64,000 nucleotides of DNA from Ahniella affigens (GTDB taxonomy: Bacteria; Pseudomonadota; Gammaproteobacteria; Xanthomonadales; Ahniellaceae). The stretch spans positions 2,294,001 through 2,358,000 of the forward strand of contig NZ_CP027860.1 of NCBI RefSeq assembly GCF_003015185.1, written 5' to 3'. The notes under the pieces are model-generated. The model did not search any database, was not told the DNA's origin, and was given only the letters and a program-made list of their open reading frames with translations. A program made the translations under genes and the position numbers. This document shows, piece by piece, positions 7,680 through 38,579 of the stretch (its first letter is position 1; each line of letters starts with the position of its first letter).

Positions 7680-7681
7680 GC

Positions 7682-9836: not shown

Positions 9837-9882
9837 CGGCCGTTTCAGTCGGTGCCAGAACCATCGAACTTCTAGTGCATCA

Positions 9883-9909
9883 GCGAGCCCGGAATGCATC
9901 CGGGCTCGC
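9883..9909. terminator. Hairpin between convergent genes
   Basis: GCGAGCCCGG (9883-9892) and its exact complement (9900-9909) enclose a 7-base loop, 46 bp after the DUF2063 gene and 15 bp after the ferritin-like gene end. There is no clear T-run, so it is terminator-like rather than a canonical terminator. Confidence 0.45.
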
Positions 9910-9924
9910 GTCCACATCGAACTA

Positions 9925-15903: not shown

Positions 15904-16436
15904 AACGCGGGCTGCTGATTGACGACGATGCACTGTACTTGCGGACGCTGAAGCGCTCGCTTGAGCGCCGTGACTTTGTCGTCACAACTGCCAGCACCGG
16001 CGACGAAGCCCTGGCGATGGCACGTGCCGGGCAACCCGAGTTCGTGTTGCTCGATCTGAAGTTGCTGAGCGAGTCTGGGCTTGATCTGATCAAGCCGTTG
16101 CGGGCGGCTTGTCCTGACGCGTACATCGTCCTGGTCACCGGTTATGCCAGCATTGCCACGGCCGTTGAAGCCATGAAGCGCGGGGCCGATCACTATCTCG
16201 CCAAACCCGTGACCGCGAACGCCATCGCTCGGGCCTTGCTCGGTGAGACAATCGAGCCCGACGCGCTGGATCCCGCCATGACCCCGCTGAGCCGGGTCGA
16301 GTGGGAGCACATTCAACAGGCGATGGTTGATACCGACGGCAATGTTTCGGCGGCGGCCAGACTGCTCGGCATGCATCGGCGAACGTTGCAGCGCAAGTTG
16401 GCCAAGCGGCCGATCTCCAGCAATCAGGAGTCTTGA
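15900..16436 (+). CDS. RegA/ActR-type response regulator
   Basis: A 178-residue regulator with a receiver domain (acidic pocket D8-D10, phosphoacceptor D52, T80, K102) and a short linker. The C-terminal Fis-type helix-turn-helix (G-N-V-S-A-A-A-R-L-L-G-M-H-R-R-T-L-Q) covers about 145-170. Length and layout match RegA/PrrA/ActR. The ATG overlaps the sensor gene stop (ATGA). RegA proteins typically control respiratory, redox and carbon genes; complex I genes lie further along this window, but a link is only possible, not shown. Confidence 0.92.
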   Translation: MKRGLLIDDDALYLRTLKRSLERRDFVVTTASTGDEALAMARAGQPEFVLLDLKLLSESGLDLIKPLRAACPDAYIVLVTGYASIATAVEAMKRGADHYLAKPVTANAIARALLGETIEPDALDPAMTPLSRVEWEHIQQAMVDTDGNVSAAARLLGMHRRTLQRKLAKRPISSNQES

Positions 16437-16740: not shown

Positions 16741-17793
16741 ATGGTTTCAGTCAACGACACGCAATCCGAATCCCCTGACCTGCGGCAAACCGCGGTGGCG
16801 CGAATCCAGGACGCGATTCGGCAGGCGGACGCAACCGTGCGCGCCCAGCACCCTTGGCTTTCCTATCAAGACACGATTGGTGTGCTGATTCTGCTGGTTT
16901 CACTGGGCGGCATGCTGGCTTTGATTCCGGCGTATACCAACGGCTGGTTGCCCGGCTGGATCGTACCACCGCTGGCGGCGATACTGGCATCCATCACGCA
17001 TGAACTGGAACACGATTTGATTCACCAGCTCTACGGCCGCAAGCGGCTGTGGCTGCAGAATCTGATGATGGCGCTGGTTTGGCTTGCCCGACCAAGCACG
17101 ATCAACCCATGGATCCGCAGGCGCCTGCATTTTGCCCATCACAAGCTGTCGGGCACGGCTGCCGATGTTGAGGAACGGGCGATCACCAATGGTGAGCGCT
17201 GGGGTGTGCGCCGGTTTTTGATGACCGCGGACGCTGGCGTATCGGTGCTGACGCGCGCGCTCAGCCCCGTTGCATCGGGACGGCGCATGCGTCTGTTCGG
17301 ACGCGCGCTCGCCGCGTACTTCCCACTCGGTTGGCTGCACTGGTCGATCTGGTGGTTGTTTGTCGCTGATCTCGTGGTGCGATCGGTGTCGATCAGCTTT
17401 GGCCTCACGCTGCCCTGGCCTGCGGCAGTCAACAGTTGGCTGCAAGACCAGCAGTGGCTGCTCGTGTGTTGGATTGGTCCGAATGTGCTCCGGAGTTTTT
17501 GTCTGCACTTGGTCAGCAGCAACATGCACTACTACGGCGACATCGCCGAAGGTGACTTGATGCGGCAATGTCAGGTACTGACCAAATGGTACTGGTGGCC
17601 GGCGCAGCTGTTCTGCTTCAACTTTGGTGGTACGCACGCGATGCACCACTTTGTGGTCAGCCAGCCGTTCTACCTTCGGCAATGGGTGGCGCGCGACGTG
17701 CTCCCGGTGATGCGCGATGCGGGCGTGCGATTTGATGATTTGGGTTCGATGGCGCGCGCCAATCGCTTTGGCGAAGCGACGACGCCGGCATGA
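16741..17793 (+). CDS. Membrane fatty-acid desaturase
   Basis: A 350-residue di-iron membrane desaturase/hydroxylase. The three histidine boxes are visible: H-E-L-E-H-D-L-I-H (87-95), L-H-F-A-H-H (129-134) and T-H-A-M-H-H (298-303). Membrane helices lie at about 46-82 and 190-225. The ATG at 16741 follows CCCACAGGAAGCC. The region specificity of desaturation cannot be read. It may supply unsaturated acyl chains for the lipoxygenase encoded 4 kb downstream, which is inference. Confidence 0.88.
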   Translation: MVSVNDTQSESPDLRQTAVARIQDAIRQADATVRAQHPWLSYQDTIGVLILLVSLGGMLALIPAYTNGWLPGWIVPPLAAILASITHELEHDLIHQLYGRKRLWLQNLMMALVWLARPSTINPWIRRRLHFAHHKLSGTAADVEERAITNGERWGVRRFLMTADAGVSVLTRALSPVASGRRMRLFGRALAAYFPLGWLHWSIWWLFVADLVVRSVSISFGLTLPWPAAVNSWLQDQQWLLVCWIGPNVLRSFCLHLVSSNMHYYGDIAEGDLMRQCQVLTKWYWWPAQLFCFNFGGTHAMHHFVVSQPFYLRQWVARDVLPVMRDAGVRFDDLGSMARANRFGEATTPA

Positions 17794-19889: not shown

Positions 19890-19904
19890 CCATTGGCGCC
19901 GCAA

Positions 19905-19939
19905 ACAAAAAGCCCCGATTTCCGTCGGGGCTTTTTTTT
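19905..19939. terminator. Bidirectional Rho-independent terminator
   Basis: AGCCCCGA and TCGGGGCT pair across a 6-base loop (19911-19932), with an A-run before and eight T after. It serves the convergent peptidase (+) and DUF4337 (-) genes. Confidence 0.93.
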
Positions 19940-19970
19940 GCCATCGCGAACCGGCCGATTCGAACGCGGC

Positions 19971-20675
19971 CTACGCCCAAGTCAGCCCGAGCATGTAACC
20001 AACACCGCTCAGAAACACCACGCCGCCCATGCCCAGAAAGCCCCAGCGAATCTTGGATTTGAAGACGAGCGCCAGACCGGCAAAGAACAACGACACGGTC
20101 AGGATCACGCCGGCCAGCGAGAATTTGTCGCCATGGTTGTTGGCATCGCGCCCTTCGTTGAAGCGCTTGTCGGCAGCGTCAAACTCATCGCCGCTGCTGC
20201 CAAACACCTCGTCGACGTAGTCCTGATCGAGGTCGATGTTCAGGGCTGCTTCCAATTGCTCAGCGTTGAGTTCGGTTGGCTTGTCTTCGCTCCCTTCGTT
20301 GTAAGCCTCGCGGACTTCCATCGGCAGACCAAGGGCCTTGTAGGCAGACTCCGACAACTGCGCCGTGTAGATCCAGCTGGCCATGCTGAGCTGACGGGCT
20401 TGGAGCGCTTCATCCTCGCTCTCCAATGCTTCCCACGACAGTTCCTTGGCGCGCTGATCGGCAGCAACATCCTGCATGTACGTGGTCAGTTCGTCGTTGT
20501 AGGTCGTCGACGCCTTGGTCGTGAGCGCAGCTGCTTCGCCGTACGCCTCGACACTCTGCCCGCCCCACAGCCCTTCCTGATGCCCGGCGATGGACGCCGC
20601 CGTGGCGCCCAAGCCCAACAAGATTGCGGCCGCCAGTTCGAATTTGTCGAATGTGCCTTTTTCGTCTTCTGCCAT
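19971..20675 (-). CDS. DUF4337-like membrane protein
   Basis: A 234-residue protein with one membrane helix near the N-terminus (about 14-30) and two near the C-terminus (about 182-230). Between them is an acidic helical region with coiled-coil character (A-L-E-S-E-D-E-A-L-Q-A-R-Q). This layout matches DUF4337 proteins. The ATG at 20675 has GGGGAG 6 bases upstream. The function is unknown. Confidence 0.72.
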   Translation of the reverse strand: MAEDEKGTFDKFELAAAILLGLGATAASIAGHQEGLWGGQSVEAYGEAAALTTKASTTYNDELTTYMQDVAADQRAKELSWEALESEDEALQARQLSMASWIYTAQLSESAYKALGLPMEVREAYNEGSEDKPTELNAEQLEAALNIDLDQDYVDEVFGSSGDEFDAADKRFNEGRDANNHGDKFSLAGVILTVSLFFAGLALVFKSKIRWGFLGMGGVVFLSGVGYMLGLTWA

Positions 20676-20962
20676 GATCAACTCCCCGTGTGTAGTGATT
20701 TGAGACAGGCCAGCAGGCGCCGGACTGTCGCTCGACCCCGTCGGTTGCCGATTGCCATCAAGCCACAATCGAATTCCGCTGCCTGCCGATTAATAACCCG
20801 AGCGGAATCGGCCTGCAAGGCCAGACGCGCGAGAGTTCACAGTTCCTGAGACCTCGGACCACGTGCCCGGCGATGGTGCGCAGCGCGCGCCAGACGGATG
20901 ACATCGACCCGCTACCGGAGTATCGTCAACCGCGGGCACACTTAGGCGCAGACGAGGATCAC

Positions 20963-22873
20963 ATGAGTCTTTTTTCACGCGTTCGTCCGACCCTTCCGCA
21001 GAACGACTCCCCCGCAGCGCAGCAGCAGCGCCAAGAGGCATTGCTGGACGAACAGAGCAAGTATGTCTGGAAAGATGATTTCGAGACGCTTCCGGGAATC
21101 CCTTTGGCGGCAAGCGTGCCGCGCGACGATCGGCCAACCATCACCTGGCTCTTAGAAGTGGCGGACGTCGGCATCGACATTGTGGCCAACCAAATCCTGG
21201 CCCAAACGGGCCGCGGTGACTCACTCAAATCGCAGACTGCGGCCGCTGCGATCAGACCACATTTGGATAGCATGCGTCAGACCATAGCGACGATTCGCAG
21301 CGAGCAGAAGGCGACCCCGGACAGCCCGCTTCGAATCGTCGACCATGTGGCCGGGACGCTGCTCAGTCTGCATCGCTCCCGCCTGGACAACGAGTTGAAA
21401 ACGCTGCAGAACATGATTGCGGCAACCTACCTCGGCAAGCTGGAAAACCCGAGCCTGGAGCAGTATCGAAAGCTGTTTGTCACGCTGCCCTTGCCGGCAA
21501 TCGCCGATACCTTCATGGACGACGCGACATTTGCCCGGATGCGCGTCGCCGGGCCGAACAGCGTGCTGATTGCCGGCCTGAGTGCCTGGCCGTTGAAGTT
21601 TGGGCTCAGCGAGGCGCAGTATCAATCGGTGATGGGCACCAACGATAGTCTGGCCTCGGCGTTAACCGAGCAGCGGCTCTACTGGCTCGATTACGAGGAA
21701 CTGAGCACTCTGAAAACGGGCACCACTGGTGGAAAGCCCAAGTTCTTATGTGCCCCGCTCGCGCTGTTTGCGATCCCGAAGGGCGGTGGCGCGCTGACGC
21801 CGGTTGCCATTCAGCTCGGACAATCACCGGCAGACGGCTTGTTCCTCCGGGTCAGCGACCAGAACAGTCCTGACTGGTGGTCGTGGCAGATGGCCAAGAC
21901 GTTCGTACAGGCCGCCGAGGGCAACTATCATGAGCTGTTTGTGCATCTCGCCCGCACGCACCTCGTCATCGAGGCATTTGCCGTCGCGACGCATCGGCGG
22001 CTGGCGCCCGAGCACCCGCTGAACGTGCTGTTGCTGCCGCATTTTGAAGGCACCCTGTTCATCAACAATTCTGCGGCAGGCAGTTTGATTGCTGAAGGTG
22101 GTCCGATCGACCATATTTTTGCTGGACAGATCACCTCCACCCAGACCCTCGCCGGTAGCGACCGGCTGGCGTTTGATGTCACCGCACACATGCTGCCCAA
22201 CGACTTGGCCAGCCGTCGTGTTGCCGACGTCGCCGCACTCCCTGACTACCCGTATCGCGATGACGCACTGCTGGTCTGGCAGGCGATTCAAGACTGGGTC
22301 CGGCAATACGTCAGCGTCTACTATCTGAACGATGCCAACGTCGCGGGCGACACCGAACTGCAAGGTTGGCGTGACGAGTTGCTCGGGCTCGGCAAAATCA
22401 AGGGGCTGCCGGAACTCAAGGACCGTGAGACGCTGATCAGCGTGGTGACGATGGTTATCTTTACGGCCAGTGCTCAGCACGCCGCGGTGAACTTCCCGCA
22501 GAAGGACTTGATGAGCTTTGCACCCGCAATCAGCGGAGCCGCGTGGGCGCCGGTGCCTAAGCCCGATCAGCCGCAATCGGAGGCGGCCTGGCTGAAACTG
22601 TTGCCGCCGATCAAGGAAGCACAAGAGCAGTTGAACGTGCTGTGGTTACTCGGATCGGTGCACTATCGGCCGCTCGGTGACTACCGGGTGAACCATTGGC
22701 CGTATCTGCCCTGGTTTCAAGATCCGCGCATCACGGGCAAGAATGGCCCGCTGGCACGTTTCAAACTGGCATTGAAGGCGGTGGAGATGGAAATCGATAA
22801 CCGGAACGCCGAGCGCGAGGTGCCGTATCCTTATCTGCAGCCGAGTTTGATTCCGACCAGCATCAACATCTGA
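20963..22873 (+). CDS. Lipoxygenase
   Basis: A 636-residue bacterial lipoxygenase with the full catalytic iron set: H328 and H333 (V-H-L-A-R-T-H), H506 and N510 (Q-H-A-A-V-N-F) and the C-terminal Ile636. The surrounding block E-A-F-A-V-A-T-H-R-R-L-A and H-P-L-N-V-L-L-L-P-H-F is typical of the family. It inserts O2 into polyunsaturated fatty acids with a 1,4-diene to give hydroperoxides. The ATG at 20963 is preferred over an upstream in-frame start at 20873 because GAGG lies 7 bases before it. There is no clear signal peptide and no N-terminal PLAT domain. Lipoxygenases are sporadic in bacteria, so transfer is plausible. Neighbours include a desaturase, a lipase and redox proteins. Confidence 0.95.
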   Translation: MSLFSRVRPTLPQNDSPAAQQQRQEALLDEQSKYVWKDDFETLPGIPLAASVPRDDRPTITWLLEVADVGIDIVANQILAQTGRGDSLKSQTAAAAIRPHLDSMRQTIATIRSEQKATPDSPLRIVDHVAGTLLSLHRSRLDNELKTLQNMIAATYLGKLENPSLEQYRKLFVTLPLPAIADTFMDDATFARMRVAGPNSVLIAGLSAWPLKFGLSEAQYQSVMGTNDSLASALTEQRLYWLDYEELSTLKTGTTGGKPKFLCAPLALFAIPKGGGALTPVAIQLGQSPADGLFLRVSDQNSPDWWSWQMAKTFVQAAEGNYHELFVHLARTHLVIEAFAVATHRRLAPEHPLNVLLLPHFEGTLFINNSAAGSLIAEGGPIDHIFAGQITSTQTLAGSDRLAFDVTAHMLPNDLASRRVADVAALPDYPYRDDALLVWQAIQDWVRQYVSVYYLNDANVAGDTELQGWRDELLGLGKIKGLPELKDRETLISVVTMVIFTASAQHAAVNFPQKDLMSFAPAISGAAWAPVPKPDQPQSEAAWLKLLPPIKEAQEQLNVLWLLGSVHYRPLGDYRVNHWPYLPWFQDPRITGKNGPLARFKLALKAVEMEIDNRNAEREVPYPYLQPSLIPTSINI

Positions 22874-23003
22874 TTTCGACACCGCTCAAGATTGGCATCC
22901 GGACACGATCTGGAGCACTAGATTTTGTTGCGATGTTGCAGCTGGTGCTAGGCAGGCGGACTTCCGCCGTGTCTGGCGATGAGTGTGACGTCCCGTCTAG
23001 GGA

Positions 23004-23152
23004 GGGTCTGAATAGGTCCATCCTGGACTTTCAGACCCGCACTGAGTCCGGCACGTGTCCGGACTCAGTGCCCCAGAATCAAGCACTTGTGTGCTTGATT
23101 CTGGGCGTGCCATCCATGGCCCGCATCGCCTCTGAACTTGTTCAGAGGCTCC
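23004..23152 (-). repeat. Five-hairpin dispersed repeat, copy C (149 bp)
   Basis: Exact length match to copies A, B and D, in the opposite orientation. S3 is a perfect 13-bp stem here (CAGAATCAAGCAC/GTGCTTGATTCTG). The ends extend into CTAGGGAG (22997-23004) and CTCCCTAG (23149-23156), an outer inverted repeat. It lies between the lipoxygenase (+) and DUF4331-like (-) gene ends. Confidence 0.92.
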
Positions 23153-23210
23153 CTAGGTTGCAACGATGCGCGAGTGCGTCTGAATCTCTGCAACAGCAAT
23201 ATGGACAGCC

Positions 23211-23247
23211 AAAAAAAGAGGCCGCTCGCCAATATCAGCGAGCGGCC
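23211..23247 (-). terminator. Rho-independent terminator
   Basis: On the minus strand GGCCGCTCGC pairs perfectly with GCGAGCGGCC across an 8-base loop and is followed by TCTTTTTTT. It sits about 160 bp after the DUF4331-like gene. Confidence 0.85.
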
Positions 23248-23407
23248 AGGCCAGACTTCAAGTCATTCCGCACCATGCTCCTGCAACACGGTGCATTGTT
23301 ATGGGCTGGATCCAATACCCCACGGTCCAGTTCCGACAAATCGACGCGTCCGTTTTCGGCAGTTGGTCGGCACCGGCCTAGCGTTGCCAGGCCGGCGCTT
23401 TCGTCAA

Positions 23408-24553
23408 CTATTTGATACCCAGCGCCTTGAGTTTGCGCTTCGCTTTCCAACCGGTAATGAGCCAATAAAGAATCAGGATCGAGAAACCAATCACCAGGCC
23501 GATGAATATTCGAATCTGCCACTGAGTTGACAACCCCTTCTTCGGCGGCGCGGCGGGCTTGTCTGGCCATGGCTCCGCCAAGTACGGGAAGTCGGCGCTG
23601 AACGGTTTGTCATTGACGACCGGTCGTGGATAGATCTTGCCGACCGCAATCGCAAGCTCCACCAGGATGCAATCACCAAAGTCGCATGCGATCTTGGCAA
23701 TGTCGTCTTCCAGTGCACGTCCATTCGGATACAGCACGGGATACCGTGACGTATAAATGCAGACGTCGGGCTCGCCGTCGTAATAGCGAATGGCAAACGT
23801 ATCGTCATACAGGTTCGTTGCGGGCGCAACGTAGCTCATCAGGAACTTGCGGAGCATGTCGCTCTTGTGGGCCTGGGTGTTGATCGCATCGGCTTGCTCG
23901 GCCGGCGGCAGCGTGTTGATGAAGCCGAATCGGGGCAGCTGCGTCCGGAGACCACGCCCAATGTGATCCAGAATCTCGGTGGAACCCTTCTTGCGCGTAA
24001 TGCCCCACAGAATCCAATCCTGCTGCCCTTCCGGGAACGCCGACATCGGGATGCTCATCACCATCGACACGACGTTCACCCCGAAGAACGGTGTGAAGAT
24101 AAAGGGATCGTCACGAACGCCCACGTACCACTGGATGTCGTCCGGGTTGTTCAGTCCCTCTACCGTCTTTTCGGCAAGCTCAGCCTGATTGTTGATCCGG
24201 ATCGTGATCGAGGCATCTGGCTTGATGCCTTGGGGATTGACCACCTGACCGCCGTAGCGTGCCCGGATTTCCGAGTTGCTGTAGTCAATCTGACTATGGA
24301 GATCCATGTAGACCACGAACTCGTAGTCTTCAAACTTGTAGGGCGGCGGTGAACTCAAGGAGCGAAAGACGTTATAGACCAAGATCAGGCGATCGCCTTT
24401 GGGAAAGACGAACAAGCCGGTGATATTGGGTTCTTTGACAAGCGACGGATCAAACTCGGCCGGAAGCGCCGGATCCGCATGGTCAGAAGCGCTGGCTCGA
24501 ACAGCCAGTAGACTGAGAACGACTGCGACTAGCAAGGTAAAGAGACGCGACAT
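23408..24553 (-). CDS. Exported DUF4331-like protein with C-terminal anchor
   Basis: A 381-residue protein. The signal peptide covers about 1-23 (ending A-S-A-S-D-H). A beta-rich body follows with A-S-D-H-A-D-P, L-I-L-V-Y-N-V, V-R-D-D-P-F-I-F and N-V-V-S-M-V-M-S-I-P, which fit the DUF4331 layout in divergent form. A membrane helix at about 346-367 and a basic end (K-A-K-R-K-L-K) would leave the body outside the inner membrane. The ATG at 24553 has GGAG 7 bases upstream. It is divergent from the cytochrome/GMC operon, sharing a 214-bp promoter region. The function is unknown. Confidence 0.7.
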   Translation of the reverse strand: MSRLFTLLVAVVLSLLAVRASASDHADPALPAEFDPSLVKEPNITGLFVFPKGDRLILVYNVFRSLSSPPPYKFEDYEFVVYMDLHSQIDYSNSEIRARYGGQVVNPQGIKPDASITIRINNQAELAEKTVEGLNNPDDIQWYVGVRDDPFIFTPFFGVNVVSMVMSIPMSAFPEGQQDWILWGITRKKGSTEILDHIGRGLRTQLPRFGFINTLPPAEQADAINTQAHKSDMLRKFLMSYVAPATNLYDDTFAIRYYDGEPDVCIYTSRYPVLYPNGRALEDDIAKIACDFGDCILVELAIAVGKIYPRPVVNDKPFSADFPYLAEPWPDKPAAPPKKGLSTQWQIRIFIGLVIGFSILILYWLITGWKAKRKLKALGIK

Positions 24554-24767
24554 ACCCCAACTCCAGTGCCCGAGGAGACTTGATCCGGGACGGAGCCTAT
24601 CCTGAAGCCCAGGCCCATGTACAGCCATTGCATCTCATTCGTGAAAGGAGTATATCGGCGAGAATCTTGGGGAAGGGTTTCTTCAGAATTCGTTTCCTCA
24701 GGGTTCACTTGTTGGATCACTGCCGGCCGGCACCTGTGCTGGGTCTCTAAGACTTGAGGAAACGTTC

Positions 24768-27293
24768 ATGAAGAAATTCATTCTGGTGCTGCTCGCACTT
24801 TTTGGTGTGGCTGCGGTGTTTTTTTCCCGCGGTTGTCGACACGAGGACAAACCCGTCAGCGGTAAGGTCCAAGACGAAGCCATGCTTGCGGGGGTGACGG
24901 CTGAGCGCCTGCCCGGTTCCGAAGAAGACTACTTGCGGGACATGGACTACGGGATTACCAAAGACCCGGAAAAGGTCCGCGCGGCCTTGGAGCCCTACGT
25001 GCCTGGCATCAGCGCCGAAGACGCCGTCAAGGCGGCGGTACGCGGACGCAACAACTGGGTGGTGTGGACCGCCGGCAACGATCGTCTCTGGGACGAGTTG
25101 TCGCGGGCCAGCTTTGGCAACCTCGATCTGCTGAAAACCTTGTCCAGTCACAAGGCCCTCAAGAACAAGCGTTCGAACCGCTGGCAGTACCTCGGTCTGG
25201 TCAATGAGCCCTGCTTCAAGGAAGCGACCGGTCCGCGTGCGGATCGCTACGGTCTCTGGCTGGATGAGCGCGTGCAGAGCGACGAGTGCGCACCAGACCC
25301 GTATGAAGACGAATCCAAGTATCCGGGCGTTCCCTACGGCGCGCGCGGCAAAGACGGCCTGCCGGTGGGCTCCTACTATGGCTATGCCAGCGGTATCGTC
25401 GGCCTGCGCATCTTCCCGAATCCGGCGTTTGACGCGGCCGCACAGAAGAATTGGGATCCAGACAAGTACTACAACGATCCGAAGTACTACAACGACAAGA
25501 ATCTGGTGAAGCCGTATCGCGTCGGCATGTCGTGCGGCTTTTGCCACGTGGGTCCGAATCCGACCAACCCACCGGCAGATTTCGAGAATCCGAAATGGGA
25601 AAACCTGAACTCGAACCCAGGCGCCCAGTACTTCTGGATCGACCGCATCTTCATGTTCGATGTCGATGAAACGAACTTCATCCATCAGCTGTTCGGCACG
25701 TCGCGGCCCGGTGCGCTGGACACCTCGCTGGTTTCGTCTGATCAGATCAACAACCCACGCACGATGAATGCGGTCTATCAGCTTGGCGCCCGCCTGGCCA
25801 TCGCACAGAAATGGGGCAAGGAAACACTCAAAGGCTCCGAGTTGAACAACAAGCAGTTCAACGACTTTGTGCCGCCGATCCCAACGAACTCGCCACTCCT
25901 GAACTTCTACAACAATCCAGACGTCAAGACGCCACGCGTGCTGAAGGATGGTTCGGATTCGACTGGCAGTCTGGCTGCCCTGAATCGCGTTTACGTCAAC
26001 ATCGGCTTGTTCAGCGAAGAATGGCTGCTGCACTTCATTCCGCTGCTGGGTGGCCCGGATATCACGCCGTTCCCGATTGCCGCTGCAGCGAAAAACTCGA
26101 CCTATTGGCAAGCGAACACGGCACAGACGCCTGACCTGGCACTGTTCTTCCTGGCCGCAACCCCGCCTGACTACTTGAAGAATGCGCCCAACGGCCCGAC
26201 CTACCTGACCACGGACGAGGCCGTTCTGGCGCGCGGCAAGGACGTGTTTGCCGAAACCTGTGCTCGCTGCCACTCCAGCAAGTTGCCCGAGCAGGCCTTC
26301 ACCGACTTCTTCCCGGATCATGGTTGCGTCAACAGCAATTACCTGCAGTGTTGGAACGACTACTGGCAGTGGACGAAGACGGAAGAGTTCAAGGCTCAGA
26401 TGCGCGGGATCGTGGCAGCGCCGGACTTCCTCGATAACAACTTCCTGTCGACCGAGTTGCGCATTCCGTCCAGCCTGATGGAAACCAACATGTGCAGCCC
26501 GCTCGCCACGAATGCGATTGCTGGCGACATCTGGAACGACTTCTCGTCGAGTTCTTACAAAGGCCTGCCCTCCGTAGGCACGGTCACCGTGCATCATCCG
26601 TACACACTGGAGCCACGTCCCTACCAGATGCCTGCCGGCGGTCGCGGTTACACCCGCCCGGCCTCTTTGGTCAGCGTCTGGTCAACAGCGCCCTTCCTGC
26701 AGAACAACAGCCTCGGTCCATTCAATTGGTACGGGACGGTCGATGGTCGCATGGAGTCGTTCAACGCTTCGATTGAGCAGTTGCTGTGGCCCGAGAAGCG
26801 TGACGGCAACGTCCAGTTCCAGACTGGATCAGGCAAGATGGCTCCGGGTTGGATCGATCGAACCACCAAGACCAGCTATTTGAAGATCGCTGGCGGCTTC
26901 CTGCCGGAATTCCTGCAGAAGCATGTTGGGTTCCTGAGCTTCATCTGGCCCAGCGTCTTCGGTGACGGTGGCATCGATCTTGGTCCGATTCCGGAAGGCA
27001 CCCCGGTCAACCTGTTGTCGAACATCAACCTGAAGGAAAAAGACAAGGTCCTGAAGTTGCTGCCGAAGATCCTGCATGACCTGAAGAAGCTGCCGCGCAA
27101 CGCCACGGACGACGACGCTCGCAAAGCGTTCGCCAATCTGGTGGAACCGCTGCTCGACGTCAGCAAGTGCCCGGACTACATCGTCAATCGCGGCCACTAT
27201 TTCGGCACGGATTACCTGCCGGCCGGTGAAGGCGAAACAGCGCTGACCGACGACGACAAGCGCGCGTTGGTCGAATTCCTGAAGACGATGTGA
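24768..27293 (+). CDS. Large exported di-haem cytochrome c (RoxA/MauG-like?)
   Basis: An 841-residue protein with an N-terminal signal or anchor helix (about 4-20) and two c-haem sites, C256-G-F-C-H260 and C498-A-R-C-H502. A conserved N-terminal block N-N-W-V-V-W-T-A-G-N-D-R-L-W-D lies at about 95-109. Size, two widely spaced CXXCH motifs and a long C-terminal region recall RoxA-type rubber oxygenases and MauG/peroxidase-type di-haem proteins, but the match is not certain. The stop lies 10 bp before the GMC gene, so it may be the electron acceptor of that flavoenzyme. Location: periplasm or outer face of the inner membrane. Confidence 0.8.
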   Translation: MKKFILVLLALFGVAAVFFSRGCRHEDKPVSGKVQDEAMLAGVTAERLPGSEEDYLRDMDYGITKDPEKVRAALEPYVPGISAEDAVKAAVRGRNNWVVWTAGNDRLWDELSRASFGNLDLLKTLSSHKALKNKRSNRWQYLGLVNEPCFKEATGPRADRYGLWLDERVQSDECAPDPYEDESKYPGVPYGARGKDGLPVGSYYGYASGIVGLRIFPNPAFDAAAQKNWDPDKYYNDPKYYNDKNLVKPYRVGMSCGFCHVGPNPTNPPADFENPKWENLNSNPGAQYFWIDRIFMFDVDETNFIHQLFGTSRPGALDTSLVSSDQINNPRTMNAVYQLGARLAIAQKWGKETLKGSELNNKQFNDFVPPIPTNSPLLNFYNNPDVKTPRVLKDGSDSTGSLAALNRVYVNIGLFSEEWLLHFIPLLGGPDITPFPIAAAAKNSTYWQANTAQTPDLALFFLAATPPDYLKNAPNGPTYLTTDEAVLARGKDVFAETCARCHSSKLPEQAFTDFFPDHGCVNSNYLQCWNDYWQWTKTEEFKAQMRGIVAAPDFLDNNFLSTELRIPSSLMETNMCSPLATNAIAGDIWNDFSSSSYKGLPSVGTVTVHHPYTLEPRPYQMPAGGRGYTRPASLVSVWSTAPFLQNNSLGPFNWYGTVDGRMESFNASIEQLLWPEKRDGNVQFQTGSGKMAPGWIDRTTKTSYLKIAGGFLPEFLQKHVGFLSFIWPSVFGDGGIDLGPIPEGTPVNLLSNINLKEKDKVLKLLPKILHDLKKLPRNATDDDARKAFANLVEPLLDVSKCPDYIVNRGHYFGTDYLPAGEGETALTDDDKRALVEFLKTM

Positions 27294-27303
27294 GGCGAGT
27301 TTC

Positions 27304-29193
27304 ATGACCGACAACAAAGCGAAATATGAGTACATCGTGGTCGGTTCGGGCGCGGGCGGCGGCACGGTTGCCGCCCGCCTTGCCGAGCTTGGCCATTCGG
27401 TGTTGCTGCTGGAGGCTGGTGGCGATCCGCTGAAGCTTTCTGGGGGCGATCCGGTCAATCCCGATGGCAATCGCCTGCCGGCCGATTACCAAGTACCGGT
27501 GTTTCACGCGTTCTCATCCGAGAACAATGCGATGAAGTGGGACTTCTTCGTCCGCCATTACAGCGATACCGCAGAACAGCAGAAGGACGAGAAGTACCGG
27601 GAATACTGGAATGGCCAACGCGTGGACGGCGTGCTGTATCCGCGCGCCGGCACGTTGGGCGGCTGCACCGCGCATAACGCGATGATCACGGTGTATCCGC
27701 ACAATGAGGATTGGGACTTCATCGCCACATTGACGGGCGACGGCTCCTGGTCCGCCGACAACATGCGGAAGTTCTTCATGAAGATGGAGAATTGCCAATA
27801 CCGGCCGGTGTGGCGCTTTCTGTCCAACTTCGGCATCAATCCGACGAAGCATGGCTTTGGTGGCTGGTTCAAGACCGAGGTCGCTTTGCCGGTCAAGGCA
27901 CTGGCCAAGGATGAGAAGCTGCTGGAGACCATTGCCGTCTCAGCGGCCGAAGCGTTCGAGCACAACGCCGAACCCGTAGAACGTCTGAAATGGGGCGTCG
28001 AGGGCAAGGGTGATCCGAATGATTGGCGCCTCGTCAGTGAGAACGCAGTGGGGATCCACTACCCGCCTCTCGCGACGGACAATCACGCCCGACACGGCAC
28101 TCGCGAACGCGTACTGGATGTCGCCCAGCGGCACCCAGACCGGTTGACGATCGAAATGTGGGCGCTGGCGACTCGTGTGTTGTTTGATGACAGCAATCGC
28201 GCAATCGGCATCGAGTTCCAAAAGGGCGAATACCTCTATCGCGCGTCAAACAAGCCCGCCGACAAGGATGGCGATGTGCGGCAAGTGTTTGCGTCCCGCG
28301 AGGTCATTCTGGCTGGCGGTGCTTACAATACGCCGCAACTGCTGATGCTGTCTGGGATTGGCGACAAGGACCAATTGAGCAAGTTCAACATCCCGGTGCG
28401 TGTAGACTTGCCAGGAGTCGGCAAGAACCTGCAGGACCGCTATGAAGTCGGTGTCGTAAACCGCATGAACTTTCCTAACTGGGAAGTGTTGAAGGATGCG
28501 AAATTCTCACCCGGCGATCCGCAGTTCGAAATGTGGCAGAACGACCGCCAAGGCGTGTACATCACGAATGGCGCCGTGCTGGCCGTGATCAAGAAGTCAC
28601 TGAAGGAACGCCCGCTGCCGGATCTGTTCATCTTCGCACTGCTCGGGCTGTTCAAAGGCTATTTCCCGACGTACTCCAAGCTCTTTGCCGAGCATCTGAA
28701 CTACCTGACCTGGGCCATTCTGAAAGCGCATACGAACAACAGTGCCGGTTCGGTGACGTTGCGTTCGGCCGACCCGCGCGATGTGCCACAGATCGACTTC
28801 CACTACTTCAATGAAGGCAACGATACGAAGGGCGATGACCTCAAGTCAGTGGTCGAAGGCATCAAGTTTGTCCGCAAGATGACGGCGCCGTTAATCGCGA
28901 AGGGTGTCATGGCCGAAGAAGAACTCCCAGGCAAGGCTGTGCAGACGGACGAGCAACTGGCCGATTTCGTCAAGTACAACGCATGGGGTCATCATGCCTC
29001 GTGCACGTGCCCCATCGGGCCGCGTGACAAGGGTGGCGTGGTCGATGGCGACTTCCAGGTTTATGGCACCAAAGGCTTGCGCATTGTCGACGCCTCGATC
29101 TTTCCGAAGATCCCGGGCTTCTTCATTGTGACCTCGGTGTACATGATTGCCGAGAAGGCCGCGCACGTCATTTCGGCTGCTGCCAAACGGTAA
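27304..29193 (+). CDS. GMC-family FAD oxidoreductase
   Basis: A 629-residue flavoprotein. The FAD-binding motif G-S-G-A-G-G-G-T-V-A-A-R-L-A is at about 14-27 with the acidic E-A-G at 36-38. GMC signature 2 (A-G-G-A-Y-N-T-P-Q-L-L-M-L-S-G-I-G) is at about 338-354. The active-site His is in W-G-H-H-A-S-C, and the C-terminal closing segment is M-I-A-E-K-A-A. It has no signal peptide. Substrate unknown: a primary or secondary alcohol, possibly lipid-derived. It lies 10 bp after the di-haem cytochrome gene, suggesting electron transfer to it, though the two predicted locations differ unless the flavoprotein is exported with a partner. Confidence 0.92.
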   Translation: MTDNKAKYEYIVVGSGAGGGTVAARLAELGHSVLLLEAGGDPLKLSGGDPVNPDGNRLPADYQVPVFHAFSSENNAMKWDFFVRHYSDTAEQQKDEKYREYWNGQRVDGVLYPRAGTLGGCTAHNAMITVYPHNEDWDFIATLTGDGSWSADNMRKFFMKMENCQYRPVWRFLSNFGINPTKHGFGGWFKTEVALPVKALAKDEKLLETIAVSAAEAFEHNAEPVERLKWGVEGKGDPNDWRLVSENAVGIHYPPLATDNHARHGTRERVLDVAQRHPDRLTIEMWALATRVLFDDSNRAIGIEFQKGEYLYRASNKPADKDGDVRQVFASREVILAGGAYNTPQLLMLSGIGDKDQLSKFNIPVRVDLPGVGKNLQDRYEVGVVNRMNFPNWEVLKDAKFSPGDPQFEMWQNDRQGVYITNGAVLAVIKKSLKERPLPDLFIFALLGLFKGYFPTYSKLFAEHLNYLTWAILKAHTNNSAGSVTLRSADPRDVPQIDFHYFNEGNDTKGDDLKSVVEGIKFVRKMTAPLIAKGVMAEEELPGKAVQTDEQLADFVKYNAWGHHASCTCPIGPRDKGGVVDGDFQVYGTKGLRIVDASIFPKIPGFFIVTSVYMIAEKAAHVISAAAKR

Positions 29194-29289
29194 GCCGTGT
29201 CATGGCGCTGGGCGTCGCGGCCGACGCCCAGCGCCATTTTGTTTTCTGCGCCATCGCAAGATGCCCGCCCTGAACGCCTGGAGTCCTCC

Positions 29290-31317
29290 ATGTCCATCCT
29301 GTCCATGCTGAAGAAAGGCTGGGACTTTCTGACCAATCTGGTGAGCCGAATGATGCAAGCAAGTCCAACTCAAGTACGCGCCAACCTATTCACCGAAACC
29401 CATTTGCGTGTCGATCAGTTTGTGGCACCCGGCAGCACGCCGGGCAACGTGGGGATTTGCTTGTCCGGGGGTGGATCCCGCGCGCTGGTCGCCGGCATGG
29501 GCCAGTTGCGCGCCTTGCGGTCGATCAAGACGGCAGATGGCCGCGACCTGATCAGTCAGGCGAGGGCCGTGTCGGTGGTTTCCGGCGGGTCATGGTTGAC
29601 CGTGCCGTTCATCTATCTGCAGGCTCAGACTTCGGACGACCAATACTTGAACGGTTATGTTGCTGATCCCGGCCGTCTGGTGCTGACCAACACGTCGGGT
29701 CATTCCCCAGCGGAGACGCTGGATCAGATTCCGGACGGCAATGCCGCGAAGGGCCCTTCGGACGAATCGTTCGGACCCGTCCTGCTCGCATTGCAGGTGC
29801 TCTTTCTGAAGAAGTTTTGGAAAGTTCCGACGCCCTACCTCTGGCAAACGGCGATTGGCCTGCATATCCTGAAGCCCCAGGGGCTTTATCCACACAATCG
29901 CAAGAAGGAGCCAACCTCCCTCTTTTCGTGGGATGCGGCGACGAAACAGAATCAGATCGTCAGCCTGAATCCTGATCTGGCGAATGCGACGGTGAGCCTG
30001 GTCGCCGATGGGTCGAATCGCAGCAAGCGGCCCTTCATGATCTGCAACATGTCGATGTTTCTGCGCATGCCGGGCACGACATTCGAGATGCTCGCACCCG
30101 TTCAGGGGACTGGTTTTGGTACCGGCATTTTTGGCAGTGTCGATGGCACTGACTACGCCAACAGAAGCCCCGGTGGCGGTGCCGTAGGCTCGTTTGCATT
30201 CAGCTCGTCGGTAGCCGCAGCCAACAACCCGGTCACAGTCTCGCAGAGCCGCCAGTACGCATTGATGGACATGGTCGGGACCAGCAGCGCGTTCTTTGCG
30301 GAAGCACTGCAGAACATCTTTGCCGGCTGGCGGCAAAATGCCGACAAACTGCATGACGACCTGATGCTCGCGCACCCGCATCTGACTCGCTGGATCGGCC
30401 GCTCGTTTCCGGCCGATGAGCAGGACGAAGCGATGGGCATGATGACGTCCATGTCTGCGGCAACGGGTGACCGCAGCAAGTCGATGGGCGTGGTCCGTGA
30501 CAAATTGATGAGCATCATCGATGACGTGCGCGACCTGAGCCCTGAATACGCCTATTGGCCGGTCAAGAATCTGACCGTGCAGTCGAACAATCCGGTCACG
30601 CGATTTGCCGATGGTGGCAATCTGGAAAACACGGGCCTGGCCAGTTTGTTCAGCTATGAGGACATCGATCGTGCGCTGGCCTTTGTCAACGCCAGCAAGG
30701 CGATCTTCGCGTGTTCACTCGGTGTCTTCGATGCCAACGGTCAGGAAATTCCGGGCACACGCGTGTTGCTCGATTCCCAAGTCCCGATCCTCTTTGGCTA
30801 TCAACCCTGGCAAAACGGCAAGGGCTATCGGCTTTATAAGGGCGACCCGAACCCGGTGTCGCCAATCTACCAGCACAATCAGATCTTTCCGTCGGAAGCG
30901 TTTGCCGATTTGTTGAAAGGTCTGTGGGCGGCGACCGGTAATACGAGCGACCCAGCCAACATGGGCATGAAAGACAACGCTACCGTGTCCGGCGTCAATG
31001 TGAACCCGCCGCTGTTCAAGCAGACGATGATGTTGCAGGCGAACGAATGGTTCGGTGTCCGGAAGCCAAGACAGGTGACCGTGCTCTGGTACTACCTCAA
31101 TCGCTTCAAGCGTTTCTACGATGCCCTACAGCCCGACGTGCGGGCCGTGCTCGGGAACTTCGATCAGCCAGACAGCTATTCGAGCTTTCCGAACTTCAGC
31201 ACGCTCAGTACGCACCTGAAAGCGCAGCAGATCAATCTGATGTCGAATCTGACCGCCTACTCGCTTGGCAACTCCGAGGACGTCGCCAAGATCACGTCGC
31301 TGTTCACGGATCCGTAA
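29290..31317 (+). CDS. Patatin/cPLA2-like lipase
   Basis: A 675-residue acyl hydrolase. The oxyanion-hole motif S-G-G-G-S-R-A is at 59-65, the nucleophile segment V-V-S-G-G-S-W at 96-102 (Ser98 by comparison with G-L-S-G-S of cPLA2), and the catalytic Asp in F-A-D-G-G-N-L. The large size and S-G-G-S-W motif are closer to cytosolic phospholipase A2 than to short patatins. The ATG at 29290 follows GGAGTCCTCC. It lies 96 bp after the GMC gene, same strand. It would release free fatty acids that a lipoxygenase could use (inference). Confidence 0.87.
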   Translation: MSILSMLKKGWDFLTNLVSRMMQASPTQVRANLFTETHLRVDQFVAPGSTPGNVGICLSGGGSRALVAGMGQLRALRSIKTADGRDLISQARAVSVVSGGSWLTVPFIYLQAQTSDDQYLNGYVADPGRLVLTNTSGHSPAETLDQIPDGNAAKGPSDESFGPVLLALQVLFLKKFWKVPTPYLWQTAIGLHILKPQGLYPHNRKKEPTSLFSWDAATKQNQIVSLNPDLANATVSLVADGSNRSKRPFMICNMSMFLRMPGTTFEMLAPVQGTGFGTGIFGSVDGTDYANRSPGGGAVGSFAFSSSVAAANNPVTVSQSRQYALMDMVGTSSAFFAEALQNIFAGWRQNADKLHDDLMLAHPHLTRWIGRSFPADEQDEAMGMMTSMSAATGDRSKSMGVVRDKLMSIIDDVRDLSPEYAYWPVKNLTVQSNNPVTRFADGGNLENTGLASLFSYEDIDRALAFVNASKAIFACSLGVFDANGQEIPGTRVLLDSQVPILFGYQPWQNGKGYRLYKGDPNPVSPIYQHNQIFPSEAFADLLKGLWAATGNTSDPANMGMKDNATVSGVNVNPPLFKQTMMLQANEWFGVRKPRQVTVLWYYLNRFKRFYDALQPDVRAVLGNFDQPDSYSSFPNFSTLSTHLKAQQINLMSNLTAYSLGNSEDVAKITSLFTDP

Positions 31318-31470
31318 AGGCCTGGGCAACCTGCTCCAGGGTGGCACCACAACACCCTGGACGCCCAGTCCGGCAAGGTTCCTGATGACGCCTCGCGGGT
31401 TCGAACAGATTCTCCACACCATCGCCCGGGCGTTGCCCGTATGCTCGACGCTTCTTTGAAGGAGTCGATC

Positions 31471-32457
31471 ATGAAGCAAGCCCGCTACAGCACCCGTGGC
31501 CCTGTTCCCCAGGACGTTATCGCCTGCGAAACGCTCGACACACCCGAACCGGGACCGGGCCAGGTCCGCATCAAAGTCCTCGCCGCGCCGATCAATCCCT
31601 CAGATGTTCTGACGCTTACCGGTGAGTACGGCATGTTGCCGCCGTTGCCCGCCGTGGGCGGAAACGAGGGGGTTGGCGTCGTTGAAGCGCATGGCGAAGG
31701 CGTCACCCAGCCGGCGGTTGGGCAAACCGTCTTGATTCCGGTTGGCGCTGGCACCTGGAGCACCCATGTGGTCGCCGATGCCGCCAAATTGATGCCCTTG
31801 CCGAACGGCGTCGACCCGATTCAACTGTCGATGCTCGTCGTCAACCCACCTACTGCTGCGTTGATGCTCAGTGAATTCGTTGACTTGCAGCCCGGTGAAT
31901 GGGTCATTCAGAACGCGGCCAATTCGGCTGTGGGTGGCTATCTGATCCAAATCGCCAAGGCGCGGGGTTTGAAAACCGCCAATGTGGTGCGGCGCGAGAG
32001 CGCGATTGCCGACCTGGCCGATTCTGGCGCTGATGTGCTGATCGTCGATGGCCCTGATCTGCACAAACGCGTGGCCGAGGCAACCGGCAAGGCGCCGATT
32101 CGCCTGGGCATCGATGCGGTTGGCGGGCAATCCACCGAGAACCTCGCCCGCTGTCTCGCGGTCGGCGGCACGTTGGTGAATTACGGCGCCATGAGCGGCG
32201 AGCCCTGCTCCATTTCGCCCGCTTCTTTCGTGTTTCGCGACATCACGCTGAAGGGTTTCTGGCTGGCGCAATGGTTCCGCAAGGCGGCACCAGCGCAGCA
32301 GATGGCAGTCTATGCCGATCTCGCCAAGCGCATTGCGACTGGCGAACTGCACGCGCGCGTGCATGCGACCTATCCCGTGGAGGCAATCAAGGACGCCGTC
32401 GCTGCTGCGGCGAGCGGTGGTCGGAACGGCAAAATCGTGATTGTGCCGACACCCTGA
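31471..32457 (+). CDS. MECR/ETR-like enoyl reductase (MDR family)
   Basis: A 328-residue medium-chain dehydrogenase/reductase without the zinc ligands. The N-terminal I-N-P-S-D-V-L-T-L-T-G-E-Y-G and G-N-E-G-V-G-V-V match mitochondrial-type 2-enoyl thioester reductases. The NADPH site is A-A-N-S-A-V-G at about 148-154, and V-G-G-Q-S-T-E-N-L is also conserved. The ATG at 31471 has AAGGAG about 7 bases upstream. Likely activity: NADPH-dependent reduction of trans-2-enoyl-CoA/ACP or a related enone, consistent with the lipid-related neighbours. Confidence 0.87.
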   Translation: MKQARYSTRGPVPQDVIACETLDTPEPGPGQVRIKVLAAPINPSDVLTLTGEYGMLPPLPAVGGNEGVGVVEAHGEGVTQPAVGQTVLIPVGAGTWSTHVVADAAKLMPLPNGVDPIQLSMLVVNPPTAALMLSEFVDLQPGEWVIQNAANSAVGGYLIQIAKARGLKTANVVRRESAIADLADSGADVLIVDGPDLHKRVAEATGKAPIRLGIDAVGGQSTENLARCLAVGGTLVNYGAMSGEPCSISPASFVFRDITLKGFWLAQWFRKAAPAQQMAVYADLAKRIATGELHARVHATYPVEAIKDAVAAAASGGRNGKIVIVPTP

Positions 32458-33134: not shown

Positions 33135-34715
33135 CTACGCCGGCCCCGAGACACCAACGATCAAGGTTGCGACGTAACCGGTTGATGTATTGCCCGCCAC
33201 ATTCGCAAGTTGGTAGGTGGTGCCATCGCGAAACACATTGTCGGCGGCGAAGCTGGTTACGGATGTGTTCTGCCCGCGGCTCGAATACAGACTTGAGTTG
33301 TAGACGGCGGTCGTGACATCTGGCGGGAACGCTATCTGCGATGTCACGGTCGCATTGCCGCCCAGCGTATTGTTCAAATACACCTGGAAGTGGATATGTG
33401 TGATCCGGCCGGCGTACCAACCGGGGTAGATGCTCGTGAAAACGACTTGCCCGGCGCTATCGCTGACTTGCACCCCGCGGAGGAATATCTGCCCGGTCGC
33501 GTTGACCCCGCCAGTCTGATTCGCGTATCCCGAATACACGCCGTCCTTGTCGCAGTGCCAAATGTAGACCGCGGCATTCGTGATTGGCGCGCAACTGCGA
33601 TTGATGTTGACCAGCTTCAGCACCAACGTCAGCGGCACGCCCGTCTTCGATTCGCGAATGTCCTGGCGGACGATGCCGGTATTCGACAACACTGATGACA
33701 GTGGATACGGCCCTTCCGTCTCCGAGGGAATCAAACTGCACGTGCTGCCGAACAGGCACGCGCCAACCGCGCTCGGGCCGCGTTCGAGCGTGATGCTGCC
33801 GCTCTTACCGGCAAATTCGCCGCTGCCAAAGTGGTAGACGAGAGTGGCGGTCGTGCAACTCGTCAAGCTCAGCACGGCCGTTCCGACCGTTACGGTTGCA
33901 ACGGTTGTCGCCGTATTGAACACGCCGCCAGTCGTCGACAGAATCTGAAATGTCAGGTTCTTGTCCCCATCCGCGTGCACCGCGCGCGCAGTGAACCAGC
34001 GTTGCCCGCTGACCCCGAGATTCGCGCCGTCTGGGGCATAGGTGTACCAAGCAAAGAAGCCTAAGTCATTCGCCGGATTGATCTCGAGAATGATGCCCTG
34101 ACCTGCGACATTCGGATCGTGCCACGCGCCGCTGTAGCCGAAGTCGCTGACGGTCAGATTGCCCCCCGCCTCGGTGCATGCGATGTTCGCACCGAGTCTC
34201 GCCAAGGCAATGCTGCCGGTACGGCCATCGGTCAGGCTAAACGCAAACGTCGCTGCGAGGCAGGACGAAAACGTGAGGCTCGCGGTCCCAACAGACTGCG
34301 CAAACGTCACCGGCGCAGCGGCAAAGTTGCCACCAGTATTGCGATACACCGTGAGCGCTGCAGCCGAGGTGCCGGTGCGAATTTCGCCGGAAAACGAATA
34401 CCAGCGTTGCGTGCTCGTGCCGCCTGCCGTCGTGTCGAATGTGAACCAACCGCCAAATAGCAAGCCGACCCCCGGTGAGATCAAGTCTGGATACACCTCC
34501 AGAATCAAGCCCTGCCCTTCGATGGCTGGGTCGTACCAGACCCCCGTCAAGCCTTGCTGATTGCCGTTCGGTGCCGCGGCTTTGCTTGCGGGGGCAACGG
34601 CCGATAGTCCGAGTCCGACACTCGCGAGGCCCAACGCGCCAAGCAACTTGCGGCGTCCGACGGTGGGCCCGGTGCTCAGTTCCTTTTGCACTGCTTCAGT
34701 CACTCTGGCGTTCAT
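33135..34715 (-). CDS. Tat-exported intradiol dioxygenase with two N-terminal beta repeats
   Basis: A 526-residue protein. A twin-arginine signal (G-R-R-K-L-L-G, 20-26) is followed by two copies of a roughly 125-residue beta domain (about 53-175 and 190-310). These share G-x-W-x-D-P-x-x-x-G-Q-G-x-I-L-E and Q-R-W-(Y/F). The C-terminal intradiol ring-cleavage domain (about 330-526) has the expected non-haem Fe(III) ligands: Y394 (D-G-V-Y-S-G-Y), Y434, H440 and H442 (W-Y-A-G-R-I-T-H-I-H). It would act on catechol-like compounds in the periplasm or outside the cell. The ATG at 34715 has AGAGGA 6 bases upstream. Confidence 0.88.
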   Translation of the reverse strand: MNARVTEAVQKELSTGPTVGRRKLLGALGLASVGLGLSAVAPASKAAAPNGNQQGLTGVWYDPAIEGQGLILEVYPDLISPGVGLLFGGWFTFDTTAGGTSTQRWYSFSGEIRTGTSAAALTVYRNTGGNFAAAPVTFAQSVGTASLTFSSCLAATFAFSLTDGRTGSIALARLGANIACTEAGGNLTVSDFGYSGAWHDPNVAGQGIILEINPANDLGFFAWYTYAPDGANLGVSGQRWFTARAVHADGDKNLTFQILSTTGGVFNTATTVATVTVGTAVLSLTSCTTATLVYHFGSGEFAGKSGSITLERGPSAVGACLFGSTCSLIPSETEGPYPLSSVLSNTGIVRQDIRESKTGVPLTLVLKLVNINRSCAPITNAAVYIWHCDKDGVYSGYANQTGGVNATGQIFLRGVQVSDSAGQVVFTSIYPGWYAGRITHIHFQVYLNNTLGGNATVTSQIAFPPDVTTAVYNSSLYSSRGQNTSVTSFAADNVFRDGTTYQLANVAGNTSTGYVATLIVGVSGPA

Positions 34716-34827
34716 ACTGATTCCTCTCATCAGGCACACAAAACGGTGGTTTCTGCAAAAGCCATACATTCGAGGACGGTGACGACACTGATTGCAAACA
34801 GCCCCGTCCTCGACGCTCCCCGATGCT

Positions 34828-34890
34828 CGTGGGGAGGGAGCCAACTCCCGCCCCCACGAAAAAGGGAGCGGGCTGGGGAGCGGTCTGCTG
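34828..34890. repeat. C/G-rich REP-like hairpin
   Basis: CGTGGGGAGGGAG and CTCCCGCCCCCACG (34828-34858) form an imperfect stem followed by GGGAGCGGGCTGGGGAGCGG. It is the same style as the palindrome at 6097-6122. The remaining 34716-35093 shows no gene. Confidence 0.55.
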
Positions 34891-35093
34891 ACGTCACGGG
34901 TTGTGCTCGAATGCGTGCGGGTCACGCCATCTTATGGTTCGGACCGAAGCGAGCCGTTAGAAAATCTGGGAGAAAAATCGAAGATTGCATGGCGCGAATG
35001 CGCAGCGCCAGCCAGAGTGCCCGTTGGCCCGCCTGAGCCAAGCCAGTATGGACGTGGCTTTGATCGCCTACGTGCAGGGTGACGCGACGCGCG

Positions 35094-38240: not shown

Positions 38241-38383
38241 TAAAGTTCTCGCGGAACATCCGTTTGGAGAGACGTCTTGATTCGGGGGTACTGAGTCTCA
38301 ACGCTAGCCTTCGCCTGACCAAGCTATCGGCCGGACTGCGGGCGGGTCCAAGAGACGAACGTGGAACTATTCAGAGCACCTTT

Positions 38384-38532
38384 GGAGCCTCTGAACAAGT
38401 TCAGAGGCGATGCGGGCCATGGATGGCCCGCCCAGAATCAAACACGCAAGTGGTTGATTCTGGAGCACTGAGTCCGGACATGTGCCGGACTCAGTGCGGG
38501 TCTGAAAGTCCAGGATGGACTTATTCAGACCC
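38384..38532 (+). repeat. Five-hairpin dispersed repeat, copy D (149 bp) plus S5 remnant
   Basis: Exact length match with copies A-C. It is followed at 38536-38570 by a second, degenerate S5 unit (AAGTCCAGGACGGAGTTATT), as if the end had been duplicated. It lies just downstream of the large minus-strand gene end at 38580. Confidence 0.92.
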
Positions 38533-38579
38533 TCCCTTTAAGTCCAGGACGGAGTTATTTAGATCCTCCTCAATGTACC

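Follow-up and report, generated by a model that had tools for sequence, protein, structure and literature searches.

The window analysed here, which is the whole of a 64-kb stretch of DNA from Ahniella affigens (contig NZ_CP027860.1) and supplies the coordinates used below unless another source is named, was found to carry a real conserved module of four neighbouring genes. These genes encode a DUF4331-like protein, a dihaem cytochrome c related to RoxA, a GMC oxidoreductase and a cPLA2/patatin-like lipase. A preliminary description of this DNA had grouped the four with a lipoxygenase, a MECR-like enoyl reductase and an upstream desaturase as a candidate lipid-oxidation neighbourhood. Family matches and motifs confirmed that every one of the named genes is present. 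The dihaem, GMC, lipase and DUF4331 genes recurred together across phyla, with two GMC-lipase fusions, but the lipoxygenase, desaturase and MECR-like genes did not share in this conservation; a real conserved set had been seen, but its border had been placed wrongly. Judged from family relations, the module is best interpreted as one for lipid oxidation, with chances that we consider about even.

Relatives of the dihaem protein were sought in 84,980 species genomes; 428 were found and the best 80 loci were read. Sequence of 2.5 kb or more downstream of the dihaem gene was available for 66 loci. In 55 of them the GMC gene followed directly, in the same orientation; in the other 11 it was nearby in a different arrangement (nine loci) or was not found (two loci). 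When the comparison was limited to the 49 loci that extend for 6 kb or more on each side, 48 contained GMC, 20 the lipase, 13 DUF4331, six a COX-like An_peroxidase and four a lipoxygenase. Each of these families was found in none of 24 control windows, which came from the same genomes but were taken at contig starts and not at random places (40 had been requested; 16 on contigs shorter than 20 kb were excluded). Fisher tests of the 49 loci against the controls gave p = 2e-18 for GMC, 1e-4 for the lipase and 3e-3 for DUF4331, the lipase and DUF4331 profiles having been built iteratively on the loci in which they were counted, with E-values that are not independent. A genus-collapsed Fisher test, which used a rough genus table, gave p = 1e-4. 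Pairwise distances among the dihaem proteins correlated with those among the GMC proteins (r = 0.60, 70 loci), a value that none of 1000 permutations reached. The association of the dihaem, GMC, lipase and DUF4331 genes was therefore beyond chance. That of the lipoxygenase with the cassette was weak, and none was shown for the other two genes: no desaturase was present among the 80 loci and no consistent counterpart of the MECR-like reductase was found there, which removes both from the conserved set to which they had been assigned.

The closest relative of the cassette was found in L017, a metagenome-assembled genome (MAG) of the Rhodanobacteraceae, where all four genes were on one strand and the proteins were 81% (dihaem), 82% (GMC), 59% (lipase) and 61% (DUF4331) identical to those of the window. 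The dihaem gene was present in only one of ten genomes of the window's family, that of A. affigens itself, and in two of 299 genomes of its order; the second, G274, also has an adjoining GMC gene. Further relatives were distributed over the Gamma-, Beta- and Alphaproteobacteria, Acidobacteriota, Nitrospirota, myxobacteria and one cyanobacterial MAG, and holders of the module included methanotrophs, ammonia oxidisers, pseudomonads, acidobacteria and rhizobial plasmids. Since this distribution across lineages is patchy, it suggests horizontal spread of the module.

Six plasmid cassette loci were fetched, two of which (L012 and L013) were unannotated and were read by open reading frames (ORFs) only. 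Directly after the dihaem gene, GMC and patatin formed one protein on a Mesorhizobium onobrychidis plasmid (1562 amino acids) and on a plasmid of Rhizobium sp. CCGE532 (1537 amino acids); the patatin domains of these fusions scored 26.6 and 30.1 bits, respectively, against a cut-off of 27.7. In Mesorhizobium a DUF4331 protein with 40% identity was encoded 7 kb from the cassette. The Rhizobium/Sinorhizobium plasmids L008 and L009 carried genes for an OYE, two RoxA-like cytochromes, the dihaem protein, GMC and patatin in a row, and the rhizobial plasmid L010 had the OYE, RoxA-like, dihaem and GMC row without a lipase. In the plasmid records the dihaem family was labelled merely as a hypothetical protein or cytochrome c.

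The features of the neighbourhood in the window are as follows.

16741-17793, plus strand: fatty acid desaturase (PF00487), a neighbour whose association is not conserved
20873-22873, plus strand: lipoxygenase (PF00305), a loose companion outside the conserved module
23408-24628, minus strand: DUF4331-like envelope protein (PF14224), a module member
24768-27293, plus strand: RoxA-related dihaem cytochrome c with two CXXCH motifs and an N-terminal anchor, the centre of the module
27304-29193, plus strand: GMC oxidoreductase (PF00732 and PF05199), the partner of the dihaem protein
29202-29237, plus strand: terminator-like 16-pair hairpin between the GMC and lipase genes, the longest stem in the region
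29290-31317 (ORF open from a GTG at 29197), plus strand: cPLA2/patatin-like lipase (motifs; PF01735 below threshold), a module member
31441-32457, plus strand: MECR-like medium-chain reductase (best PDB relative MECR), a neighbour whose association is not conserved

The DUF4331-like and dihaem genes are divergent, with about 140 bp between them, and the gap between the dihaem and GMC genes is 10 bp. The GMC and lipase genes are separated by the hairpin; terminator-like sites in the region were no more numerous than in shuffled sequence. The earlier statement that the whole block is not one operon is upheld. The desaturase gene ends 3.1 kb 5' of the lipoxygenase gene, in agreement with the roughly 3 kb reported previously. 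The start at 20963 assigned earlier to the lipoxygenase corresponds to an internal methionine; the ORF begins at 20873. Two ORFs without Pfam matches, 19893-20849 and 22933-23415, were dropped as genes. The second runs through a copy of a dispersed repeat of about 160 bp, which lies between the convergent lipoxygenase and DUF4331-like genes. The MECR-like protein appears to be an enoyl-reductase relative, as judged from its closest solved structure (MECR, mitochondrial 2-enoyl thioester reductase; E ~1e-59).

The dihaem protein (P0001, 841 amino acids) has haem-binding motifs at residues 256-260 (CGFCH) and 498-502 (CARCH). When its AlphaFold2 model (mean pLDDT 74.6, pTM 0.79) was compared by VIA-align, RoxA (PDB 4b2n) was aligned over 354 residues with 18% identity and a Z of 5.3, within the range below 8 that can reflect mere arrangement; the next row scored 2.2. 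The protein resembles RoxA and the RoxA-like cytochromes (PF21419, RoxA-like_Cyt-c) in its two c-type haems and its predicted export and perhaps in its fold, the match just given extending over the whole length; it shares with RoxA the motifs W.TAP[FY] and, at the C-terminus, GH...LTD..ALIEYIKT. The two stretches that could be matched by eye were the MauG region and this C-terminal motif, which reads GGHDF...LTDSERWALIEYIKTL in RoxA and RGHYF...LTDDDKRALVEFLKTM in the dihaem protein.

Several results weighed against this kinship, and so against an oxygenase at the centre of the module. No structural relative of the model was found with Foldseek, P0001 had no match to PF21419 at E 0.01, and profile-profile comparison with RoxA-like proteins (hhalign) aligned just 26 columns around one haem. 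The Mesorhizobium homologue scored 19.5 bits with PF21419, under the cut-off of 26.7, and no convincing relative was found when the PDB was searched by sequence with P0001, P0004 and dihaem profiles. The match to NCBIfam CytoC_perox (NF040606) reached 39.3 bits compared with a cut-off of 150. The MauG motif of RoxA contains a histidine (PY[FL]HNGSVP; PMC6311187), but in P0001 the corresponding sequence is APFLQNNS, with glutamine in its place, and among 72 family members this position was leucine in 56, glutamine in seven, histidine in seven and valine in two. The family also differs from RoxA in the greater length of the window protein and in being nearly always paired with GMC. The dihaem protein is probably a distant relative of RoxA, as far as sequence and model comparison can indicate; because of the short profile alignment, the negative PF21419 and Foldseek searches, the Z below 8 and the altered MauG histidine, it was classed as RoxA-related and not as a member of the RoxA family.

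A distal phenylalanine (F317) and a stable haem-O2 complex are features of RoxA. RoxA itself reportedly binds oxygen stably at the N-terminal haem and lacks peroxidase activity (PMC6797691, PMC6311187). The RoxA family has been reported to include the fatty-acid dioxygenase PA2077 and the diol synthase PA2078 of P. aeruginosa (PMC4496055). When compared by description, this FadCcp oleate 10S-dioxygenase/diol synthase pair, which is reported to act on fatty acids, resembles the window protein in being dihaem, RoxA-related and periplasmic; it differs from the cassette in that no GMC or lipase partner is mentioned in the available part of that report (PMC4496055). RoxA cleaves polyisoprene (PMC6311187), and in rhizobia, among others, RoxA-like cytochromes are neighbours of the cassette. 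The cassette might thus serve nutrition by degrading a hydrophobic polymer or an isoprenoid from outside the cell (rubber-like or polyester), with the lipase as depolymerase, but we consider this very unlikely, since signal peptides are absent from the lipases of the window and L017, the patatins of several relatives are membrane-embedded, and many of the holders are methanotrophs and ammonia oxidisers. To our knowledge, neither of these groups is known to consume polymers.

The GMC protein matched GMC_oxred_N (PF00732; 75.2 bits) and GMC_oxred_C (PF05199; 110.3 bits), both above cut-off. It resembles the BetA-type choline dehydrogenases in that its best NCBIfam matches were PRK02106 and betA, but these scores were far below their cut-offs and its substrate is therefore likely to differ from that of BetA. 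A strong hydrophobic N-terminus was present in 61 of 82 dihaem proteins, and several others looked lipoprotein-like by eye. By contrast, only one of 73 GMC proteins had a hydrophobic stretch, and none of the 73 had a twin-arginine translocation (TAT) motif ahead of the FAD motif. The two proteins thus seem to be located on opposite sides of the membrane, which makes direct electron transfer between them unlikely. Either the substrate of the GMC enzyme is a product able to pass through the membrane, as could be the case for quinone-linked BetA-like enzymes, or the enzyme leaves the cytoplasm by another route.

These data also bear on the proposal that the dihaem protein assists GMC in electron transfer or as a peroxidase, with an alcohol or sugar being oxidised and the lipase incidental. 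Cytochromes serve other flavin dehydrogenases, the dihaem and GMC genes are by far the tightest pair, a recognised lipase was absent from more than half of the loci, and both the weak CytoC_perox match and the resemblance of GMC to choline dehydrogenase point the same way. The proposal is nevertheless doubtful, given the lack of an export signal in GMC just described, the two fusions that link the lipase to GMC itself and the fact that the sole candidate structural relative of the dihaem protein is an oxygenase.

The lipase ORF opens with the GTG at 29197, but the L017 homologue begins at the equivalent of M32; on this alignment the true start is probably the ATG at 29290. The protein has the motifs GGGSR, SGGSW and DGG at ORF positions 91, 129 and 472, presumably the oxyanion loop, the nucleophile and a catalytic motif, respectively. 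In these motifs it resembles cPLA2, the fungal lysophospholipases (PLA2_B) and patatin; it differs in its PF01735 score, which at 20.1 bits was below the cut-off of 23, and in that most of its cassette relatives are of a patatin subtype with hydrophobic inserts. The window lipase belongs, with those of L017 and L042, to a soluble PLA2_B-like subtype. Eight of ten lipase representatives matched Patatin or PLA2_B in Pfam, three of them above cut-off. The position of the lipase is thus kept across cassettes and its subfamily varies. The DUF4331-like protein matched PF14224 over its C-terminal 54 residues only (29.3 bits; cut-off 27) and has a hydrophobic N-terminus (signal or anchor) and a C-terminal helix; its model (mean pLDDT 73) gave weak beta-sandwich matches only, the best with E 0.01.

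The lipoxygenase was readily assigned to its family (PF00305; E 4.1e-68, 230.9 bits). Its best PDB relatives were the linoleate/arachidonate lipoxygenases 4rpe and 4g32 (E ~1e-173), which we take to be P. aeruginosa LoxA, and it has H353, H358, H536, N540 and a C-terminal I666, presumably the iron ligands. Its identity to one of the P. aeruginosa copies is 45%, and its set of ligand residues is complete, but it differs from LoxA in its neighbours and in that no signal peptide was seen in the window copy.

Outside the window, linkage of a lipoxygenase to the cassette was found in only five ammonia-oxidiser genomes of one clade, the Nitrosomonadaceae: at 5.6-7.1 kb in four Nitrosospira/Nitrosovibrio loci, where the four lipoxygenases measured were 30-31% identical, and on the cassette contig about 10 kb away in Nitrosomonas mobilis. 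In L061, L069, L072 and L074 (Nitrosovibrio/Nitrosospira), genes of two lipid-oxygenase families stand side by side: that for a COX-like An_peroxidase directly precedes that for the lipoxygenase, and the dihaem-GMC pair lies 5.6-9 kb away. No lipoxygenase was found in the L017 MAG, and the cassette was absent from beside the other two lipoxygenases of the A. affigens genome and was not seen at the five plasmid lipoxygenase loci that were read, of eight found. At L005, the locus of the third A. affigens lipoxygenase (8543-10750 of that locus), a GMC-like protein (2281-4146; FAD motif by eye) is encoded 4.4 kb before it. Membership of the lipoxygenase in the conserved set, as proposed earlier, did not survive these comparisons.

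At the level of genomes the two did co-occur. Lipoxygenases, reported by one survey in fewer than 0.5% of bacterial species (PMC6612559), were present in 11 of 80 dihaem-bearing genomes (1/40 and 10/40) compared with five of 368 sampled gammaproteobacteria, the A. affigens genome excluded (p = 6e-6); seven of the 11 were ammonia oxidisers and one, G352, had just a short weak match. Of 15 dihaem matches in the 369-genome gammaproteobacterial sample, four with E >1e-4 (haem motif only) were excluded to leave 11, and a dihaem gene was found in four of the five lipoxygenase genomes (p = 1.4e-6). These four genes were on other contigs than the lipoxygenase, had 25-31% identity and had no adjoining GMC gene where read. 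At L143, L145, L147 and L149 a divergent dihaem gene is followed by one for a protein of about 580 amino acids, the L145 copy of which matches cytochrome c weakly. In the fifth genome, G659, a RoxA-like cytochrome gene overlaps the lipoxygenase start by a few bases (L150, 6965-10551). Lipoxygenases and RoxA-type cytochromes keep company, and the window lipoxygenase is outside the conserved module. That the entire 12-kb block, with the lipoxygenase and MECR-like reductase, is one lipid-oxidation pathway would accord with this co-occurrence and with the linkage in ammonia oxidisers; we judge it quite improbable, given the single clade behind seven of the 11 genomes, the L017 MAG in which no lipoxygenase was found, the other two A. 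affigens and five plasmid lipoxygenases, which have no cassette, and the desaturase and MECR-like genes, which are not conserved neighbours.

Some further observations were made in and around the region. The dispersed repeat, which has an internal palindrome, occurs in the window at 7226-7377, 7528-7685, 22992-23157 and 38378-38537; genome-wide there were 278 candidates, most of the 40 that were scored having 92-97% identity, and clusters with a spacing of about 127 bp in places (C1:213721-214137, 3008589-3009003 and 5721018-5721557). A RegB/RegA-like redox two-component pair (14593-16436), with NCBIfam matches to ActS/PrrB and ActR/PrrA below cut-off, directly precedes the desaturase gene. 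In the product of 33135-34925 the C-terminal third contains an intradiol dioxygenase C domain, and the long N-terminal part has no family match. Near the dihaem gene in 13 loci (L025, L044, L054, L061, L064, L065, L066, L069, L072, L074, L076, L089 and L092) there was a recurrent paralogous pair of about 434 and 510 amino acids, one weakly DyP-peroxidase-like, usually with proteins of about 400 and 150 amino acids of no known family.

No description of the function of this module was found in the open-access literature on DUF4331, on lipoxygenase with Nitrosospira or Nitrosomonas, or on GMC with patatin and dihaem proteins. From the observed gene association, fusions and motifs, we infer a substrate, an order of steps, an electron route and a role for the DUF4331-like protein within an uncharacterised lipase, dihaem oxygenase and GMC dehydrogenase module that is about as likely as not to act on membrane-derived acyl or isoprenoid chains. 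The cPLA2/patatin-like enzyme would free a hydrophobic chain, for which a fatty acid of a membrane lipid is the likeliest candidate. The dihaem protein, exported and anchored in the envelope, would oxygenate or cleave this chain at its N-terminal haem, and the BetA/choline-dehydrogenase-like GMC enzyme would oxidise the resulting alcohol or aldehyde at the cytoplasmic face and pass electrons to the respiratory chain. The lipoxygenase may be an optional second entry into the same kind of chemistry from outside the module; the route from phospholipid to fatty acid to hydroperoxide put forward in the preliminary description is likewise a conjecture. Besides the doubts about the dihaem protein and the location of GMC, this lipid-oxidation reading has to contend with the recognition of a lipase in 24 and of a DUF4331 relative in 14 of the 80 loci, both minorities, and with lipase Pfam scores that were mostly below cut-off.

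A more specific form of the lipid-oxidation reading, which we regard as unlikely, is that of a widespread, undescribed bacterial oxylipin system in which an envelope-anchored haem-c dioxygenase replaces the lipoxygenase and acts with a lipase, an enone reductase and GMC as alcohol dehydrogenase. The enone reductase would be the OYE in rhizobia and the MECR-like protein in the window, and in some lineages the dihaem dioxygenase would be joined by a lipoxygenase and a COX-like peroxidase. Such a system would be laid out in the manner of the jasmonate and eicosanoid pathways.

If membrane lipids are indeed oxidised by the products of the module, many environmental bacteria would have a lipid-oxidation pathway that is independent of lipoxygenase, and a role would be provided for both the DUF4331-like proteins and the dihaem family. 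The natural GMC-lipase fusion offers a direct handle for testing the function of the module.

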